Assembly (NCBI GenBank): GCA_021157415.1
Contig: JAGGWN010000038.1
Coordinates: forward strand, 1-44,388
Length of the DNA stretch: 44,388 nucleotides
Origin: Bacteroidales bacterium
GTDB lineage: Bacteria; Bacteroidota; Bacteroidia; Bacteroidales; VadinHA17
Direction of reading: 5' to 3'
Below the pieces are notes generated by a model. It was not told where the DNA came from, searched no databases, and saw nothing but the letters and a program-made list of their open reading frames with translations. A program made the position numbers and the translations under genes. Positions 3,287 through 29,007 of this stretch are shown here, piece after piece. Position 1 is the first letter of the stretch. Every line of letters begins with the position of its first letter.

Positions 3287-4243
3287 ATGAAAGAAAACAT
3301 TATGATCATCGGAGCTTCGGGCCAGATTGGATCGGAGCTGACAATGAAGCTGCGCGAAATATACGGTGCAGGACATATATACGCCACCGACCTGAAAGAA
3401 CCGGCTCCGGATGTATTGCAGAGCGGTCCGTTTGAACTGCTGGATGTCATGGATGACAAAAGACTGATTCATTTTGTCATACGTCACCATATCACACAGA
3501 TATATCACCTGGCCGCGGTTCTGTCGGGCAATGCGGAAAAACTTCCGATGCAGGCCTGGCATATCAACATGAACAGTCTGCTGAATGTGTTGGATCTGGC
3601 CAAAGAAGTAGAAGAGATCAAAAAGGTTTTCTGGCCTAGTTCTATAGCCGTTTTCGGGCCGACCACCCCGAAAAAAAAGACCCCGCAACTTACCATAATG
3701 GAGCCCAATACGGTGTATGGCATCAGCAAGCTGGCCGGCGAGAGGTGGATCGAATATTTTCATAAAAGATACCATGTGGATACACGAAGCATCCGTTATC
3801 CCGGGCTGATAAGCTACAAGACAGAACCTGGTGGCGGAACGACGGATTATGCCGTGGAGATTTTTTACCATGCCATCAAACATGGTCGGTATGAATGTTT
3901 TCTGGATAAGAATACCACACTGCCCATGCTCTATATGTCGGATGCCATTGAAGCAACGGTAAAACTGATGGAATCGGACGTTTCTTCCCTGAGCATTCAG
4001 TCCGCTTATAATATCGGAGGCCTGAGTTTCAGCCCGGAAGAGCTGGCTGTCGAAATACGAAAACACATCCCTGATTTCATCATCACCTATAAACCGGATT
4101 TCCGCCAGGACATTGCCGCAACCTGGCCGGAAAGCATAGAGGATAAGGTGGCCAGAAACGACTGGGGCTACCATCCGCAATATGACCTGTCTGCAATGAC
4201 GGAACTGATGCTGAATGAGATACGGGAAAAGTTAAACAAATAA
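3287..4243 (+). CDS. tdh: L-threonine 3-dehydrogenase, short-chain (SDR/epimerase-like) type
   Basis: This enzyme oxidises L-threonine to 2-amino-3-ketobutyrate with NAD+. The N-terminal Rossmann motif GASGQIG (residues 9-15) and the SDR catalytic pair Tyr144-x3-Lys148 (VYGISK) are present, with the upstream Ser of SSIAVFG. The 318-residue length fits the UDP-galactose-epimerase-like TDH class, not the zinc-dependent alcohol-dehydrogenase class. The kbl gene follows after 12 bases and encodes the next step, which makes the assignment firm even though the SDR fold alone would be ambiguous. The pair converts threonine to glycine and acetyl-CoA. Confidence 0.9.
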   Translation: MKENIMIIGASGQIGSELTMKLREIYGAGHIYATDLKEPAPDVLQSGPFELLDVMDDKRLIHFVIRHHITQIYHLAAVLSGNAEKLPMQAWHINMNSLLNVLDLAKEVEEIKKVFWPSSIAVFGPTTPKKKTPQLTIMEPNTVYGISKLAGERWIEYFHKRYHVDTRSIRYPGLISYKTEPGGGTTDYAVEIFYHAIKHGRYECFLDKNTTLPMLYMSDAIEATVKLMESDVSSLSIQSAYNIGGLSFSPEELAVEIRKHIPDFIITYKPDFRQDIAATWPESIEDKVARNDWGYHPQYDLSAMTELMLNEIREKLNK

Positions 4244-4255
4244 ATATCCATCATC

Positions 4256-5449
4256 ATGTATAGCGAAAAAATTAAACAACATTTCAGGAATGAACTTGAC
4301 AGTATCCGGGATGCCGGTCTGTTTAAGGACGAAAGGATCATCGCCTCCCCACAGGGTGCTGAGATCACGATCTCAACAGGGGAAAAGGTTCTGAATTTTT
4401 GTGCCAATAATTACCTGGGTCTCTCCAACAGTCCCGAATTGATCCGGGCTGCCAAAGAGGCCATGGACACCAGAGGCTATGGGATGTCCTCGGTACGGTT
4501 TATATGCGGCACCCAGGATCTGCATAAGGAACTGGAATACAGGATTGCAAAATTCTTCGGGACGGAAGATTCGATCCTGTATGCTGCCTGCTTTGATGCC
4601 AATGGCGGTCTTTTTGAACCACTGTTGACGGAAGAGGATGCCATTATTTCCGATATGCTTAATCATGCGTCCATTATTGACGGAGTAAGGTTATGCAAAG
4701 CCCAGCGATTCAGATACCGTAACGGTGATATGCAAGACCTGGAAGAAAAACTAAAAGAAGCACAATCCGCCCGTTTCAGGGTCATTATTACGGATGGTGT
4801 GTTCTCGATGGACGGAAATGTTGCCCCGGTGGATGAGATTGTCCGTCTGGCCGATCAATATGATGCGATGGTTATGGTAGATGAGAGTCACTCGGCCGGC
4901 GTAGTGGGAGAAACCGGCAGAGGAGTGACCGAACTGTTCAACATCCGCGGACGGGTAGATCTTATCACCGGCACCCTGGGGAAAGCTTTCGGCGGAGCGA
5001 TCGGAGGATTCACCACGGGCAGGAAGGAGATTATCGAAATGCTGAGACAACGGTCACGACCTTATCTTTTCTCTAACTCCCTGCCTCCGGCAGTGGTGGG
5101 TGCTGCCATCAAAATGTTTGATATGATGGATCAGACTTCTGCCCTGCAGGAAAAACTACACCGCAATACCGGTTACTTCATGGAGAAAATGGAGAAACTC
5201 GGATTTGACCTGAAACCCACCCAATCGGCTATTTGTGCCGTAATGCTCTATGATGCCAAGCTTTCCCAGGATTTTGCCGAAAAGCTTCTGGATGAAGGGA
5301 TTTATGTCATAGGTTTTTATTATCCGGTGGTACCGAAAGGACAAGCTCGTATCCGGGTACAGCTCTCGGCGGCACATGATACGGAACATATCGACCAGGC
5401 CGTTGCCGCTTTTGAAAAAGTCGGAAAAGAACTGGGAGTGATAAAATAA
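4256..5449 (+). CDS. kbl: Glycine C-acetyltransferase (2-amino-3-ketobutyrate CoA ligase)
   Basis: This PLP enzyme of the alpha-oxoamine synthase family cleaves 2-amino-3-ketobutyrate with CoA to glycine and acetyl-CoA. Visible features are FCANNYLGL near residue 48, the PLP-contacting DESHSAG (209-215) and the Schiff-base lysine in TGTLGKAFGG (Lys243). The 397-residue length is typical. Related enzymes are serine palmitoyltransferase and 8-amino-7-oxononanoate synthase; the close sequence and the upstream tdh favour Kbl. It is co-transcribed with tdh and ends at an intrinsic terminator. Confidence 0.95.
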   Translation: MYSEKIKQHFRNELDSIRDAGLFKDERIIASPQGAEITISTGEKVLNFCANNYLGLSNSPELIRAAKEAMDTRGYGMSSVRFICGTQDLHKELEYRIAKFFGTEDSILYAACFDANGGLFEPLLTEEDAIISDMLNHASIIDGVRLCKAQRFRYRNGDMQDLEEKLKEAQSARFRVIITDGVFSMDGNVAPVDEIVRLADQYDAMVMVDESHSAGVVGETGRGVTELFNIRGRVDLITGTLGKAFGGAIGGFTTGRKEIIEMLRQRSRPYLFSNSLPPAVVGAAIKMFDMMDQTSALQEKLHRNTGYFMEKMEKLGFDLKPTQSAICAVMLYDAKLSQDFAEKLLDEGIYVIGFYYPVVPKGQARIRVQLSAAHDTEHIDQAVAAFEKVGKELGVIK

Positions 5450-14946: not shown

Positions 14947-16506
14947 TTATTGTTCCTGTTGTCTTGGCTTTAGTACTGCAAAAGGTATCAGCATCTCTTC
15001 CATGGATATCCCGCCATGCTGAAAGGTCCCTTTGAAAAACCGAATATAATAATTCATATTCTTGGGATAAATCAGATATTGTTTTTCCCTGGCAAAAACG
15101 TAAGTAGAGGTGATATGATCTTTGGGCAGGTGTATCTGTTCGGGCTGACGAACGCCAAAAACCTCTTTGGGATTATAATTCAGATTTCTGCCCAGCTTGT
15201 ACCGTAAATTGGTTGTAGTATCCCGGTCTCCCACAACTTTTACGGGAGTTTCCACATCAATGCTTCCATGGTCTGTGGTAATACATAACCGGATGTTTTT
15301 TTTCGCCAGGAGACGCACCAGAGGATACATGTAAGAATGTTCAAACCAGGTGCGTGTCAGGGCTCTGAAAGCTTTTTCATCCCTTGCCAGTTCACGGATC
15401 ATATTCATCTCCGTTCTTGCATGTGACAACATGTCCACAAAATTATAAACCAGAACCACCAGGTCGTTGTTCAGCAGGTTCGGTATTCCCTCCAGAATCT
15501 TTTTCCCTTCGTTCTGATTCAGTATCTTCCTGTACACATGTTTGATATTTAAGCCTTCTCTTTTAATCTGTTCCGCCAGCAAGGCTGCTTCAAACTCATT
15601 TTTATTTCCCTCTTCCTCGTCAAAACGCCAGTATTGCGGTAATAACTTGTGGATCTCCAATGGCATAAGTCCCGCAAATATGGCATTTCTGGCATACTGC
15701 GTTACGGTAGGCAGGATACCGTAATAAATATTTTCCTCCTCCAGCATAAAATATTCCTGAATCAGACCATACAGAATCTTCCACTGATCCAGACGCAAAT
15801 TATCAATTACGATCACCACGGTTTTGGTTCCGTTTTTCACCTGTGGGAAAACCCACTTACGGAAAACCTGGGGGGACAACACGGGGTTATCTCCTTCCCC
15901 AAACCAACGGGGATAATTTTTTTGTATAAACCGGGAAAATTCCCTGTTGGCTTCGGTACGCTGGTCTGCCAGTACGGAAGCCATCCCGCTCGACCCGGCC
16001 TCTTCCAGTTCTATGTCCCAGAAGACAAGACGTTCATATATATCTACCCAATCCCTGAAACTCCCGGCCATCATGATTCTTTGAGAAAGCCGCATGAATT
16101 CAGATTGGTATTTTGATGCGGAATGGCTCTCCCTGATCTTCGATCGTTCCGTAAGTTTTTTCAGCGTTAATAACAATTGCTGCGGACGTACCGGCTTAAT
16201 CAGATAATCGGCAATTTTTGATCCTATTGCCTGTTCCATCAGATCCTCTTCTTCGCTCTTGGTGATCATGACCACCGGTAATTCTGAGAAAGAATTCTTT
16301 ATCTGCTCCAGGGTTTCCAGCCCACTCAAACCAGGCATCTGCTCATCCAGTAATACTACATCGTAAATCTCCTCCCTGACTTTTTCCACAGCATCTACAC
16401 CATTGTTGGCAGTGTCTATCTCATATCCCTTATCCTGCAGAAAAAGAATCTGAGAATGCAGTAAGTCAATCTCATCATCTATCCATAGTATTTTTATCTT
16501 TCTCAT
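14947..16506 (-). CDS. porX: PorX: response regulator with PglZ domain, type IX secretion regulator
   Basis: PorX controls transcription and function of the type IX secretion system with the kinase PorY. The N-terminal receiver domain (about 1-125) has the acidic pocket Asp10/Asp11, phosphoacceptor Asp54 (VVLLDEQMPG), Thr82 and Lys104. From about residue 160 to the end is a PglZ/alkaline-phosphatase-like domain with VVIVIDNLRLDQW and a later ITTDHGSIDVETP metal-site motif. In the literature this domain acts as a zinc phosphodiesterase on oligonucleotides. The length of 519 is normal. It heads the tight run porX-tsaE-ald-waaA, and porW lies just upstream on the same strand. No PorY-like kinase is in the window. 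Confidence 0.94.
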   Translation of the reverse strand: MRKIKILWIDDEIDLLHSQILFLQDKGYEIDTANNGVDAVEKVREEIYDVVLLDEQMPGLSGLETLEQIKNSFSELPVVMITKSEEEDLMEQAIGSKIADYLIKPVRPQQLLLTLKKLTERSKIRESHSASKYQSEFMRLSQRIMMAGSFRDWVDIYERLVFWDIELEEAGSSGMASVLADQRTEANREFSRFIQKNYPRWFGEGDNPVLSPQVFRKWVFPQVKNGTKTVVIVIDNLRLDQWKILYGLIQEYFMLEEENIYYGILPTVTQYARNAIFAGLMPLEIHKLLPQYWRFDEEEGNKNEFEAALLAEQIKREGLNIKHVYRKILNQNEGKKILEGIPNLLNNDLVVLVYNFVDMLSHARTEMNMIRELARDEKAFRALTRTWFEHSYMYPLVRLLAKKNIRLCITTDHGSIDVETPVKVVGDRDTTTNLRYKLGRNLNYNPKEVFGVRQPEQIHLPKDHITSTYVFAREKQYLIYPKNMNYYIRFFKGTFQHGGISMEEMLIPFAVLKPRQQEQ

Positions 16507-24907: not shown

Positions 24908-26101
24908 ATGAAAAATATCGATAATTACGATTTCACCGGAAAAAGAGTCCTGGTAAGAGTGGACTTTAACGTCCCACTGGACGAGAACTACCATATTACC
25001 GATGATACCCGTATCCGGGCTGCCTTGCCTACCGTCAATAAGATACTGGAAGGAGGAGGCCGACCCATTCTGATGTCCCACCTGGGCCGGCCAAAAGATG
25101 CCTACGAGGAAAAATTTTCCCTGAAACATGTTGTCCCTCATCTCTCCGGTTTGCTGGGCAGGGAAGTGAAATTTGCCGCCGATTGCATTGGCCCTGAAAC
25201 CGAAAAAATGGCCGGGGATCTGAAACCCGGCGAGGTCATGTTATTGGAAAATCTGCGTTTTCATGCCGAAGAGAAAAAAGGGGACGAAGGTTTTGCCGCT
25301 CAACTGGCCAAACTGGCCGATGTCTATGTCAATGATGCTTTCGGAACAGCTCACCGGGCGCATGCCTCTACCACTATTGTGGCTAAGTTTTTCCCGGAAG
25401 ACAAAATGTTCGGATACCTGATCGAAAATGAGTTGAAAAACATGGACAAAGTGCTGCATAACCCCGAACATCCCTTTACTGCGATCATGGGAGGGGCCAA
25501 GGTGTCCGACAAGATTCTTATCATTGAGAACCTGCTGGAACGGGTGGACAACCTGGTGATAGGTGGCGGAATGGTTTATACTTTCGTCAAGGCCCGGGGA
25601 GGAAAGATCGGCAACTCGCTGGTGGAAGAGGACAAACTGGACCTGGCCCTCCGACTGCTGAATATCGCCACGGAGAAAAATGTCAAAGTATATCTGCCGG
25701 TGGATAATGTGATTGCAGATGCTTTCAGCAACGATGCCAATACAAAGGTTATTCCGGTGGATGAGATCCCTGACGGCTGGATGGGTCTCGATGCCGGCCC
25801 CGAGACCATCAAAACGGTCAGGGAGGTGATTATGAATTCCAAAACGATCCTGTGGAACGGTCCAATGGGGGTTTTTGAGATGGAAAAATTTGCCGAAGGT
25901 ACCAAACAGGTGGCCTTGGCCATCGCCGACGCTACCGCTGCCGGCGCATTCAGCCTCGTGGGAGGCGGGGATTCGGTAGCTGCCGTTAATAAATATAACC
26001 TGAAGGATAAAATGGGCTATGTCTCTACCGGCGGCGGTGCTATGATGGAATATATGGAAGGTAAAGAATTGCCCGGTATTAAGGCCATTCGTGAAGCATA
26101 A
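24908..26101 (+). CDS. pgk: Phosphoglycerate kinase
   Basis: This glycolytic enzyme transfers phosphate between 1,3-bisphosphoglycerate and ADP. Visible motifs are [10 protein letters not shown] (about 15-24), the substrate arginines in SHLGRPKD and [23 protein letters not shown], and the nucleotide-site GGGDSVAAV near the C-terminus. The length of 397 is normal. It is monocistronic, with its own -7 box and a strong terminator. Confidence 0.98.
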
Positions 26102-26116
26102 ACGTTACTCTGTCAA

Positions 26117-26147
26117 GTAAAAGCCCCGCCGTTTGTGGGGCTTTTAC
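26117..26147 (+). terminator. Intrinsic terminator of pgk
   Basis: GTAAAAGCCCC (26117-26127) pairs with GGGGCTTTTAC (26137-26147) around a 9-base loop, 16 bases after the pgk stop. The T-run is inside the right arm. The symmetry would allow action on both strands. Confidence 0.85.
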
Positions 26148-26168
26148 TACGTAGGTACCTACGTAGGT
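26147..26168. repeat. Palindrome with internal direct repeat after the pgk terminator
   Basis: Bases 26147-26166 form a perfect 20-bp palindrome (CTACGTAGGT followed by its reverse complement). The decamer CTACGTAGGT also occurs as a direct repeat at 26147-26156 and 26159-26168. It abuts the pgk terminator and lies about 57-78 bases upstream of the lipoprotein start, where an operator would be expected. The function is unknown. Confidence 0.5.
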
Positions 26169-26224: not shown

Positions 26225-26764
26225 ATGAAGTATCTTTTACCGTTTCTGCTGATGCTGGCTATGACAACCCCCGGATGTAAAAAAACAACAGAGCCTAAAG
26301 TCTCCGGGGAAGTGACAATCAATTCAAAACTATATGGGACAGGCCCTTACTATATTATCGGATATTCTTTTTCTAAAGGAGCACTGGTGGAATCGGGCTC
26401 AAACCCTGAACCCGACATTACGATATCGGCGCAGACCAGTCCCGACAACACATCCATCGACTGGGTGTATCTGAGTACGGATAACTTTCAGAACTCTTTT
26501 TCTCTGAACGCTTCTTTTGACAATAGCGTGACAGCAGAAGATTTTTTCAACAATTATCTGACCGTACCGGATACAATCGGGTACACAGGTATCGCTAAAG
26601 ATATCAAACCTTATCAGGTATGGACCTTCCGGACCCGAGAACAAAAATATGTGAAACTGCTTATCCTTAAAGTAGTGGCCGAGATCCGGGATGGAGAACC
26701 TTATGCTGAAACGACCTTCCGGTATGTTTACCAATCCGACGGCACAAAGGTCTTTCCCAAATAA
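26225..26764 (+). CDS. Small hypothetical lipoprotein
   Basis: I do not recognise this 179-residue protein. It has a lipoprotein signal peptide (MKYLLPFLLMLAMTTPGC) with Cys18 as the likely lipidated residue. The mature part is Ser/Thr-rich and probably beta-structured (GEVTINSKLYGTGPYYIIGYSFSKG). Its stop codon TAA overlaps the ATG of the LuxE-like gene by one base, so the two are translated together. This suggests a linked role, but none is known. A palindromic repeat lies upstream. Confidence 0.75.
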   Translation: MKYLLPFLLMLAMTTPGCKKTTEPKVSGEVTINSKLYGTGPYYIIGYSFSKGALVESGSNPEPDITISAQTSPDNTSIDWVYLSTDNFQNSFSLNASFDNSVTAEDFFNNYLTVPDTIGYTGIAKDIKPYQVWTFRTREQKYVKLLILKVVAEIRDGEPYAETTFRYVYQSDGTKVFPK

Positions 26765-27795
26765 TGCAAACCCGGAAAATAAGATACCTCTTGCAAGATC
26801 AGATCAACCATATCCGGAAAAGTATTTTTCAGATCACGGATGAACGTTCTTTCAGGGAAGTGACCCTGGAAGTCTTCCGGTTTCAGGCAATATACAATCC
26901 TGTTTACCGGAAATACATTCATTTGTTGGGGATTAATCCTTCATTGGTAAAGGATATAAAAGAAATTCCTTTTCTGCCGGCGGCTTTTTTTAAAGATCAT
27001 ACGATCAGCATTACGAACGGACCCTTTGAAACCGTTTTTTTCAGCAGCGGCACTGCCGGCAGCAGTCCTTCCCGACATCCTGTTCCGGACCTTTCAATCT
27101 ATGAGGAAAGCTTTAGCCGGGCCTTTCAACATTTTTACGGGGACATCACAGCTTATTGTATCCTGGCGTTGCTGCCTTCCTATCTGGAACGCCACGGATC
27201 GTCACTGGTATATATGCTTGATGCTCTGATCAAAAAAACAGACTGTAAGGCAAGCGGTTTTTATCTGTATGACCACGACAGGCTTTATAAGACCCTGCTC
27301 GCCCCGCGTATGCGGAACAAGAAAGTTCTGCTTTTCGGGGTCAGTTTTGCCCTGCTCGACTTTGCCGAAAAACATGAATTGCCTGGAGAGATGGATCTCA
27401 CTGTAATGGAAACGGGCGGCATGAAGGGGCGGCGGAAAGAGATGGTAAGGAAAGAGTTGCATGATTTTTTGAAAGAGCGATTTCGTGTCTCTTCCGTCCA
27501 TTCCGAGTATGGCATGACCGAGCTCCTGTCCCAGGCTTATTCTTCCGGTAACGGGATTTTTCGACCCCCCCCCTGGATGCGGATCCAGGTGCGGGACAGC
27601 TATGATCCGTTTGCTTATTCTCCTCCCGGTCATACAGGGGGTATCAATGTAATCGATCTGGCCAACCTCTATTCCTGTGCTTTCATTGAGACACAGGATC
27701 TGGGACGTTTGCATCCCGACGGCAGCTTCACTGTCGAAGGCCGCTACGATCACAGCGATATCCGCGGGTGTAATTTAATGGTACAGGAAATATAA
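26764..27795 (+). CDS. LuxE-like acyl-protein synthetase / PaaK-like adenylate-forming enzyme
   Basis: This 343-residue protein resembles LuxE, which activates a fatty acid with ATP and passes it to its own cysteine. ANL-superfamily features are visible: the phosphate-binding FFSSGTAGSSPSRH (92-105), SEYGMTELLSQAY (248-260), the ribose-binding ETQDLGRLHPDG (309-320) and the hinge-like EGRYDHSDIRGCNLM (325-339). Candidate acyl-carrying cysteines are Cys305 (NLYSCAF) and Cys336. No luxC, luxD or acyl carrier gene is nearby, so the substrate and acceptor are unknown. It overlaps the upstream lipoprotein gene by one base. Confidence 0.82.
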   Translation: MQTRKIRYLLQDQINHIRKSIFQITDERSFREVTLEVFRFQAIYNPVYRKYIHLLGINPSLVKDIKEIPFLPAAFFKDHTISITNGPFETVFFSSGTAGSSPSRHPVPDLSIYEESFSRAFQHFYGDITAYCILALLPSYLERHGSSLVYMLDALIKKTDCKASGFYLYDHDRLYKTLLAPRMRNKKVLLFGVSFALLDFAEKHELPGEMDLTVMETGGMKGRRKEMVRKELHDFLKERFRVSSVHSEYGMTELLSQAYSSGNGIFRPPPWMRIQVRDSYDPFAYSPPGHTGGINVIDLANLYSCAFIETQDLGRLHPDGSFTVEGRYDHSDIRGCNLMVQEI

Positions 27796-27840: not shown

Positions 27841-29007
27841 CTACCTGATGCCTAATTTCTTCCTGATGTCCTTCGGCAGGGCATTCTTATGCACCATAAT
27901 GGCCAGGGTTTTCAGTTCGACGAAAGGCTCTGACATAAATAAGTAACCGCCATATTTGTTGCTCTTGGTGCCCCAGGAATTTTTGGTCAGATAATACAGG
28001 GTGCCGTTTTCATCTTTCCCCGTTCCGACAAGGTGCATCAGATGATCGTCGGTTGTTTGATAATCATCGAAAGTCTTCTGACGCATTGCCTGTGTGACCA
28101 ACAATTCTTTTACCGGATGTTTGAAAGCCGAATCCACCTCAGCCCCTGACATACTCTCCCAGGGTTTTTCCGGAAGAATGGCTACTCCGTTTTTATGCGA
28201 AAATCCTTTTTCGCTTACATCTCCGTCCCAGGCTACCGAAAACCCGTGATCCAGAGCATAGTTGATTACGTCCATGAGCTCATTCACGGGCAGGTTATAA
28301 TAAAGGTCATGTGTCCAGTTATCCGGTACTTCCAGGCCGAACCGCGTATAAAAAGGATGATGGGTGTAAGACGTCAGTTCCACATAATCGTCCGGATTAA
28401 AGTGAAAATGATTCCGGAAAGATTCCGGTGTAAATTCTTTCCCTTCCCAGGTAAAAGTTTCCGGATCTCTTCCCAGATAAGCATCCAGTACCGACGCATA
28501 TCCCTTTGGCCAGGCTGTGGTGAGTTTCCGGCTCTTTACCACAGCATCGAGATAAGCATTGAGTACCTTGTTCAGCTCGCTGTGATTATGAATGGTATCC
28601 CCGTAATTTTTGCCGGGATACACTTCTTCAGGCACGAAACCATACTGTCGGATCACGTTGATCACATCATGGGCCTGTCCTCCCGGGCCGAAATTGGCCA
28701 GACCGTGGAAACGTACATACAAGTTCCCTTTTCGTTCATAGGCATGCCGTACCGTGAACATCTCCGACAAATTCAAAACTGGGCCTCCCTGCCGGAGGAT
28801 TTCCGTTTCTACAAAGGAAGTGGTTGCAAAACACCAGCAGGTACCGGTTCGTTGCTGGTTCTTGACAGGTGTAGTCCTTATCTTCCGGATATCCTGAAAA
28901 TGATAGGGATGGTTCTCAAACTGGGCGTTGCCGGCAAAAACAAAAGCAGACAACAGAATGATTACAAAGAATCCTCTTAGTGCGAAAACATTTCTGTTCT
29001 TTTTCAT
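27841..29007 (-). CDS. Exported C1-family cysteine peptidase, bleomycin hydrolase/aminopeptidase C type
   Basis: This is a papain-like peptidase of the bleomycin hydrolase group, which usually trims N-terminal residues from peptides. The catalytic residues are in order: Gln51 and Cys57 in NQQRTGTCW, His322 in TDDHLMHLVG, and Asn343 in TKNSWG. Unlike classic cytosolic PepC it has a signal peptide (about residues 1-28, cleavage near GNA-Q), so it should act in the periplasm or beyond. It has no recognisable type IX C-terminal sorting domain. The 388 residues are shorter than the typical 440-450 of PepC. It follows the MmcQ/YjbR gene by 42 bases. Confidence 0.9.
   Translation of the reverse strand: MKKNRNVFALRGFFVIILLSAFVFAGNAQFENHPYHFQDIRKIRTTPVKNQQRTGTCWCFATTSFVETEILRQGGPVLNLSEMFTVRHAYERKGNLYVRFHGLANFGPGGQAHDVINVIRQYGFVPEEVYPGKNYGDTIHNHSELNKVLNAYLDAVVKSRKLTTAWPKGYASVLDAYLGRDPETFTWEGKEFTPESFRNHFHFNPDDYVELTSYTHHPFYTRFGLEVPDNWTHDLYYNLPVNELMDVINYALDHGFSVAWDGDVSEKGFSHKNGVAILPEKPWESMSGAEVDSAFKHPVKELLVTQAMRQKTFDDYQTTDDHLMHLVGTGKDENGTLYYLTKNSWGTKSNKYGGYLFMSEPFVELKTLAIMVHKNALPKDIRKKLGIR

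Follow-up and report, generated by a model that had tools for sequence, protein, structure and literature searches.

A divergent LuxE-family synthetase, core to the Bacteroidia, co-occurs with an unlinked gene for a LuxC-like protein

Results

The window, the whole 44,388-nucleotide stretch of a Bacteroidales genome analysed here (GCA_021157415.1, contig JAGGWN010000038.1), carries adjoining open reading frames for a lipoprotein and a LuxE-family synthetase (Table 1). The two frames are joined by a one-base overlap at AAATAATGC (TAATG), as the preliminary description of this DNA had stated. This coupling is not kept among relatives: intergenic gaps vary, and one genome of the same family (G005) has the two genes in tail-to-tail orientation, on opposite strands. 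Upstream of the lipoprotein is a gene that we take to encode phosphoglycerate kinase (pgk), recognised from its sequence and named without a family search. At the loci of four relatives (neighbour cluster 7), pgk directly adjoins the synthetase with no lipoprotein between them, so the link between pgk and the synthetase may be older than the lipoprotein's placement. The hairpin downstream of pgk is a possible terminator; it is absent from the output of a consensus terminator scan, and promoter and terminator scans returned no more than chance. On the other side, a gene for a papain-like C1 peptidase converges on the synthetase, and a relative of this peptidase (cluster 10) is a neighbour in 21 of 110 LuxE loci. 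Neither LuxC nor LuxD, nor any other lux gene, was found among the 22 window open reading frames scanned against Pfam; within that set, the absence of LuxC and LuxD near the synthetase is borne out.

Table 1. Features of the synthetase locus, in window coordinates
Feature	Position	Strand	Remarks
Phosphoglycerate kinase gene (pgk), presumed	24908..26101	+	Upstream of lipoprotein
Hairpin, 14 pairs	26116..26148	+	Between pgk and lipoprotein; MFE -23.2 kcal/mol for 26109-26150
Lipoprotein ORF	26225..26764	+	179 aa; HmuY-like fold model
Synthetase ORF, LuxE family	26764..27795	+	343 aa; Pfam LuxE match
Cys305 codon	27676..27678	+	Conserved in Bacteroidia orthologues; position not Cys in LuxE of 7XC6 or L112
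Cys336 codon	27769..27771	+	In low-confidence tail 330-343; aligned with Gly-Cys of LuxE
Papain-like C1 peptidase gene	27841..29007	-	Pfam Peptidase_C1_2; converges on synthetase

Two other parts of the window drew our attention. A family search identified a response regulator fused to a PglZ domain at 14950-16506, a fusion that, to our eye, resembles PorX of type 9 secretion. At 3287-5446, the same kind of search found an NAD-dependent epimerase-family gene followed by a class I/II aminotransferase-family gene, which we presume may be a threonine degradation pair.

The synthetase passes the Pfam LuxE (PF04443) cut-off of 24.9 with 31.7 bits. It does not reach the NCBIfam equivalog for bioluminescence LuxE (NF052244), scoring 38.7 bits against a cut-off of 550. 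When the single sequence was searched against the PDB, the top match was the LuxE of 7XC6 (7xc6_E, E 2.9e-8), which was also the sole match at E 0.01; two further matches, at E 0.73 and 0.95, we regard as chance. A profile of 45 synthetase sequences, with ranges set to open frames, likewise had chain E of 7XC6 as its sole PDB match at E 0.1 (E 1.6e-20), and found no PaaK at that threshold. Judged by these searches, the synthetase is a divergent LuxE-family protein.

Conservation was mapped on an alignment of the window synthetase with 109 homologues (n = 110). SSGT (94-97), HSEYGMTE (246-253), D312 and GR (326-327) are each present in 105 to 110 of the 110 sequences. We take these residues to be the adenylating motifs, and the earlier claim that ANL-type nucleotide motifs are kept holds across the alignment. 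Cys336 is conserved in 109 of the 110 synthetases, the single exception being a gap, and Cys305 in 108, while Cys132 and Cys161 are variable. The profile alignment to 7xc6_E extends through the C-terminal tail and places Cys336 on the Gly-Cys of LuxE. The Arg-Gly-Cys tail of a classical LuxE from another locus (L112) also pairs with Cys336, and a second classical LuxE (L111) has the same RGC tail. Cys305, by comparison, pairs with no cysteine in either the LuxE of 7XC6 or that of L112. Passages of one paper (PMC8301110) place the acyl site of the Photobacterium enzyme at Cys364, near the C-terminus, and describe transfer of the acyl group to LuxC, where it is reduced with NADPH. Because Cys336 aligns with the Gly-Cys of the LuxE acyl site and Cys305 with no LuxE cysteine, Cys336 is the better candidate for the acyl carrier of the two cysteines first put forward.

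An AlphaFold model of the synthetase (mean pLDDT 88.3, pTM 0.87) is poorly defined at residues 330-343, Cys336 included, where pLDDT falls below 50. In structural comparison it scores best against PaaK1, PaaK2 and other PaaK-like ligases (Z 24.6 to 21.5), with which it shares the N-terminal adenylating fold. The model aligns to residues 17..344 of the 425-residue PaaK1 chain and then ends, so that the C-terminal domain of PaaK is missing. In PaaK, this mobile domain has a role in the formation of the CoA thioester; in its place, the synthetase has a tail cysteine. As modelled, the synthetase thus consists of an adenylating domain like that of PaaK, with the C-terminal domain absent, and a loose tail bearing Cys336. 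The comparison with LuxE and PaaK that the preliminary description had proposed yields the N-domain fold of PaaK together with a tail that aligns on the Gly-Cys of LuxE.

These matches raise the question of whether the synthetase is a ligase of the PaaK kind, acting on CoA or another acceptor, that has been mislabelled as LuxE. Not only are its top structural matches PaaK1, PaaK2 and their relatives, but they include short phenazine-biosynthesis proteins (3hgv, 3l2k, 3hgu; 346-352 residues; Z 21.6-22.3), which means that a PaaK-like protein can be short without being a LuxE. The LuxE of 7XC6 is not among the 50 structural matches listed, although this excludes nothing. We nonetheless consider a mislabelled ligase very improbable, given the missing C-terminal domain, a tail cysteine that is invariant save for one gap, and a sequence profile whose PDB matches at E 0.1 include LuxE but no PaaK. 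Family match, fold and C-terminal cysteine instead agree on a LuxE-type acyl-protein synthetase, the identity originally assigned.

The synthetase is widespread. It was matched at E <=0.001 in 31 of 40 relatives (the window's genome counted) and in 92 of 99 genomes of the class Bacteroidia, mostly as a single match; the class sample was evenly drawn, each genome being at least 90% complete. The synthetase is therefore a core gene of Bacteroidia. Presence was scored with single-protein queries; searches of the window's genome with the PF04443 and PF05893 families gave no match, missing even its LuxE gene, and these negatives were disregarded. A scan of a public genome collection confirmed at least 592 synthetase stretches among at least 594 candidates, and the best 80 of these (at least 592) matches lie in Marinifilum, Maribacter, Mucilaginibacter, Pedobacter, Flavobacterium and other Bacteroidota. 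Two genomes of our set also carry classical LuxC and LuxE genes side by side, G122 at locus L111 (1423-4004) and G042 at locus L112 (1471-3799); the L112 pair scores 195 and 120 bits in Pfam. Since both genomes hold the core LuxE as well as the classical pair, core LuxE and classical LuxE are separate families. At both loci the classical pair adjoins what we recognise from its sequence as a methyltransferase-like gene.

The lipoprotein has a much narrower distribution. A profile of 20 lipoprotein relatives was searched in 64 of the 138 genomes, 24 from the window's family and 40 from outside it. It matched 22 of the 24 same-family genomes, always beside the synthetase (within 270 bases by match coordinates) and on the same strand in 21 of them, G005 being the one with opposite strands. 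Adjacency thus holds in 22 of the 23 LuxE-bearing genomes of the family: G009 (68% complete) has the synthetase and no lipoprotein match, and G020 has neither. Outside the family, a nearly full-length lipoprotein was found in two of the 40 genomes (G030 and G037), 12.7 kb from the synthetase and on the other strand, with weak partial matches in G029 and G101. None of the 25 LuxE-bearing genomes tested outside the family has an adjacent lipoprotein, and a conserved operon of the two genes was rejected there on this count. Across the 110 LuxE loci, 25 hold a lipoprotein relative, four of them in named records (L031, L048, L057, L100) that may lie within or outside the family.

The coupling to the lipoprotein that the preliminary description had emphasised, and whose conservation it had proposed to survey, is therefore a feature of one family: the genes are adjacent in nearly all LuxE-bearing genomes tested within it and in none tested outside, so that the refutation proposed there, rare adjacency in relatives, half applies. 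With adjacency at 22/23 within and 0/25 outside, a shared function as a general rule is unlikely. The two proteins could still form one functional unit, with the synthetase acylating the lipoprotein or supplying it with a ligand, and the unbroken adjacency wherever a same-family genome has the lipoprotein (22/22, 21 on one strand), its recurrence in the four named-record loci and the start-stop overlap in the window are all in keeping with this. We find it improbable in light of the 25 outside genomes, the distant and oppositely oriented copies in G030 and G037, the opposite strand of the synthetase in G005, and the presumption that one protein is cytosolic and the other exported. The lipoprotein is probably a bystander or lineage-specific neighbour that takes no part in catalysis.

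The lipoprotein's Cys18 is invariant in 20 of 20 relatives. In many of them the alignment has Lys and Asp/Glu residues after this lipidated cysteine, a stretch that we take to resemble the surface-export signal of Bacteroidota lipoproteins. For an AlphaFold model (pLDDT 82.6, built on five sequences), eight PDB entries stand out as similar, with Z 9.4-11.7 and 119-128 residues aligned, the next row falling to Z 3.7. The eight are two HmuY proteins, an HmuY analogue, an HmuY-like protein, PinO, BfrB, a putative lipoprotein and a DUF4466 protein; Foldseek TM-scores for several of the HmuY-type matches are modest (0.40-0.45). The predicted fold is thus like that of the HmuY haemophore-like lipoproteins. 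Unlike HmuY, the mature protein (after Cys18) contains no His and no Met, the residues that usually ligate haem iron, and neither Pfam nor NCBIfam gave a match up to E 1. Across the 20 relatives, His or Met occupies any given aligned position in three sequences at most. According to one paper (PMC12106395), the HmuY proteins rely on paired His or Met residues, although some of them take up haem in the absence of iron ligands. Haem binding by the lipoprotein is therefore unlikely.

A Pfam LuxC (PF05893) search of the 99 class genomes brought up a protein that is common among them and whose open frame spans about 340-400 residues. Matches with open frames of about 470-630 residues look, by their length, like general aldehyde dehydrogenases and were not counted as LuxC-like. 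Two examples of the shorter protein pass the Pfam cut-off of 21 with 41.6 and 32.0 bits; they score 17 and 28 bits against the LuxC equivalog and do not reach its cut-off of 750. For the shorter protein, chain A of 7XC6 (LuxC) is the sole PDB match at E 0.1, with E 0.0022 from one LuxC-like sequence and 9e-5 from a 20-sequence profile. The LuxC-like protein is shorter than LuxC (about 350 against 477 residues), and the matches are limited to the N-terminal part of LuxC. Cys221, in the numbering of the homologue from a sister of the window's genome (G003), is invariant in 24 of 24 LuxC-like proteins, these being what remained of 28 loci after L147, L148, L151 and L160 (duplicate or partial) had been dropped. 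Profile comparison pairs Cys221 with a Gly-Cys of one classical LuxC at 57% probability.

The LuxC-like gene is encoded away from the synthetase. BLAST at E 1e-6 against the 110 LuxE loci, taken with up to 1.5 or 6 kb of flank, turned up no LuxC-like open reading frame, and linkage of LuxC to LuxE was rejected on this basis. Its own neighbourhoods vary. In L113, L115 and L119 the LuxC-like gene is divergent from a gene for a YfhL-type 4Fe-4S ferredoxin (a family match for L113), and in L113 and L115 the next gene looks to us like phosphoserine aminotransferase. Several LuxC-like genes of Bacteroidales adjoin what we take to be a pRiA4b ORF-3-like gene and miaA. At one LuxE locus (L075), the synthetase gene lies near a ferredoxin gene resembling that of the LuxC locus L113; the sequence upstream, as far as the contig end, showed no LuxC reading frame.

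With one L116 protein as the query, a LuxC-like match was obtained in 90 of the 99 class genomes. In the two-by-two table, based on this query alone, both genes are present in 89 genomes, LuxE only in three (G000, which is the window's own genome, G067 and G133), LuxC only in one (G062), and neither in six (G063, G070, G080, G085, G108 and G117), with a Fisher p of 5e-7. G067, G133 and G062, which break the pattern, are good assemblies; G063, with neither gene, is a 0.5-Mb genome. Counted by family, with the window's own family (f1) left out and one mixed family (f37) scored as having both, the figures are 48/1/1/4 (both, LuxE only, LuxC only, neither; p 8e-5), and four separate families within the class set lack the two genes jointly. 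Among the 40 relatives the raw association is weak (26/5/5/4, p 0.17). It rises to 22/0/2/3 (p 0.003) in 27 relatives under a filter, picked after seeing the data, that dropped 13 of the 40: 11 below 90% completeness and two with a contig break at the locus. Of the five relatives with LuxC and no LuxE, three (G024, G028, G036) have remote matches (E 4e-43 to 4e-16), and the other two (G020, G032) have strong matches in genomes that are 85-88% complete. Since the co-occurrence was computed without an unlinked control gene, part of the association may reflect general gene loss, such as co-loss in shrinking genomes. Taken together, the synthetase is stand-alone, as it had been called, in its neighbourhood alone; across the class, an unlinked LuxC-like gene co-occurs with it.

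Co-occurrence might mean little if LuxC accompanies the synthetase merely as another core gene. The synthetase would then work without LuxC, its Cys336 passing the acyl group to a different acceptor within a core Bacteroidia pathway, whether an acyl carrier protein, some other protein or an amine. The empty count at the 110 LuxE loci, the two good assemblies that keep LuxE alone (G067 and G133) and co-loss figures computed without a control gene are all in keeping with such an arrangement. Harder to reconcile with it are the joint absence of the genes from four separate families and the fact that the two proteins match the two kinds of chain in one solved complex (7XC6), and no other PDB chain at E 0.1. 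On balance, we rate a LuxC-free role as rather unlikely.

The window's own assembly, although rated 100% complete, gave no LuxC-like match with two queries. In the sister genome G003, the gene order is a TPR-type gene, a gene for a 421-residue protein, LuxC, miaA, a nudix gene and a gene for a 242-residue exported protein; the TPR-type, miaA, nudix and exported-protein names are our reading of the sequences, not the outcome of family searches. About 900 bases separate the end of the TPR-type gene from the end of one contig (C30) in the window's genome, and the homologue of the 242-residue protein starts about 240 bases into another (C90); the genes between them were not found in this genome. 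In G003 the missing block spans roughly 4 kb, with LuxC and a second miaA among its genes. The window's assembly also lacks the LuxC-linked miaA; the only miaA found there is a paralogue at 37% identity. At its end, C30 runs into short repeats. In another genome without a LuxC match (G006), a contig ends inside the LuxC-linked miaA. Because the syntenic place of LuxC falls between two contig ends, we infer that its absence from the window's genome is most simply an assembly gap.

Discussion

We lean, with limited confidence, towards a two-protein carboxylic-acid reductase to which the synthetase would contribute the LuxE-type half, the LuxC-type half coming from a gene at another genomic site. 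The family, fold and motifs, the conservation of the cysteines and the co-occurrence in genomes are established. Building on them, we infer a contact between the two proteins, an acyl transfer and an aldehyde product, along with the use of an acid. In the proposed sequence, the synthetase would adenylate an acid with ATP, and the acyl group would move to Cys336 on the enzyme's own mobile tail. From there it would be handed to the invariant cysteine (Cys221 in the G003 homologue) of the LuxC-like protein of about 350 residues, where its reduction with NAD(P)H would give an aldehyde. The HmuY-fold lipoprotein would probably play no part in this chemistry.

The proposed pair both resembles and departs from known systems. 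With the LuxE of the luciferase operon (PF04443; 7XC6 chain E), the synthetase shares its family match, adenylating motifs and a Gly-Cys tail cysteine. It differs from that LuxE in its equivalog score (38.7 against 550 bits), its status as a core gene of a class, its extra conserved Cys305 and the lack of a LuxC-like gene nearby in 110 loci. The LuxC-like protein is similarly like LuxC (PF05893; 7XC6 chain A) in its Pfam match, its sole PDB match and its invariant Gly-Cys, and unlike it in length (about 350 against 477 residues), in a match confined to the N-terminal part and in equivalog scores of 17 and 28 against 750. Passages of two papers place LuxE and LuxC genes in flagellar glycan islands of Aeromonas and Enterobacteriaceae (PMC7874193, PMC4875605). 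Those islands and the present genomes have LuxE plus LuxC in common, as do the adjacent classical pairs of L111 and L112. Unlike the glycan-island and classical pairs, however, the present one is unlinked, mostly single-copy and core to the class, with the LuxC side shortened.

More tentatively, and with doubts that outweigh our confidence, we suggest that Bacteroidia may possess a conserved, unlinked acid reductase of the LuxE/LuxC type. It would supply an aldehyde to a core pathway, so far undescribed, of lipid or envelope synthesis, and where a lineage can do without the product, both genes would be lost together. In the open-access literature, judged by titles and the openings of abstracts, we found no paper on LuxE or LuxC genes of Bacteroidota. 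If the proposal is correct, an enzyme pair that ranks among the best known in bioluminescence has a widespread relative in a large bacterial class, where it is unconnected with light and would supply aldehydes for a product yet to be named. Cultivated species of Flavobacterium, Pedobacter and Maribacter carry the synthetase.
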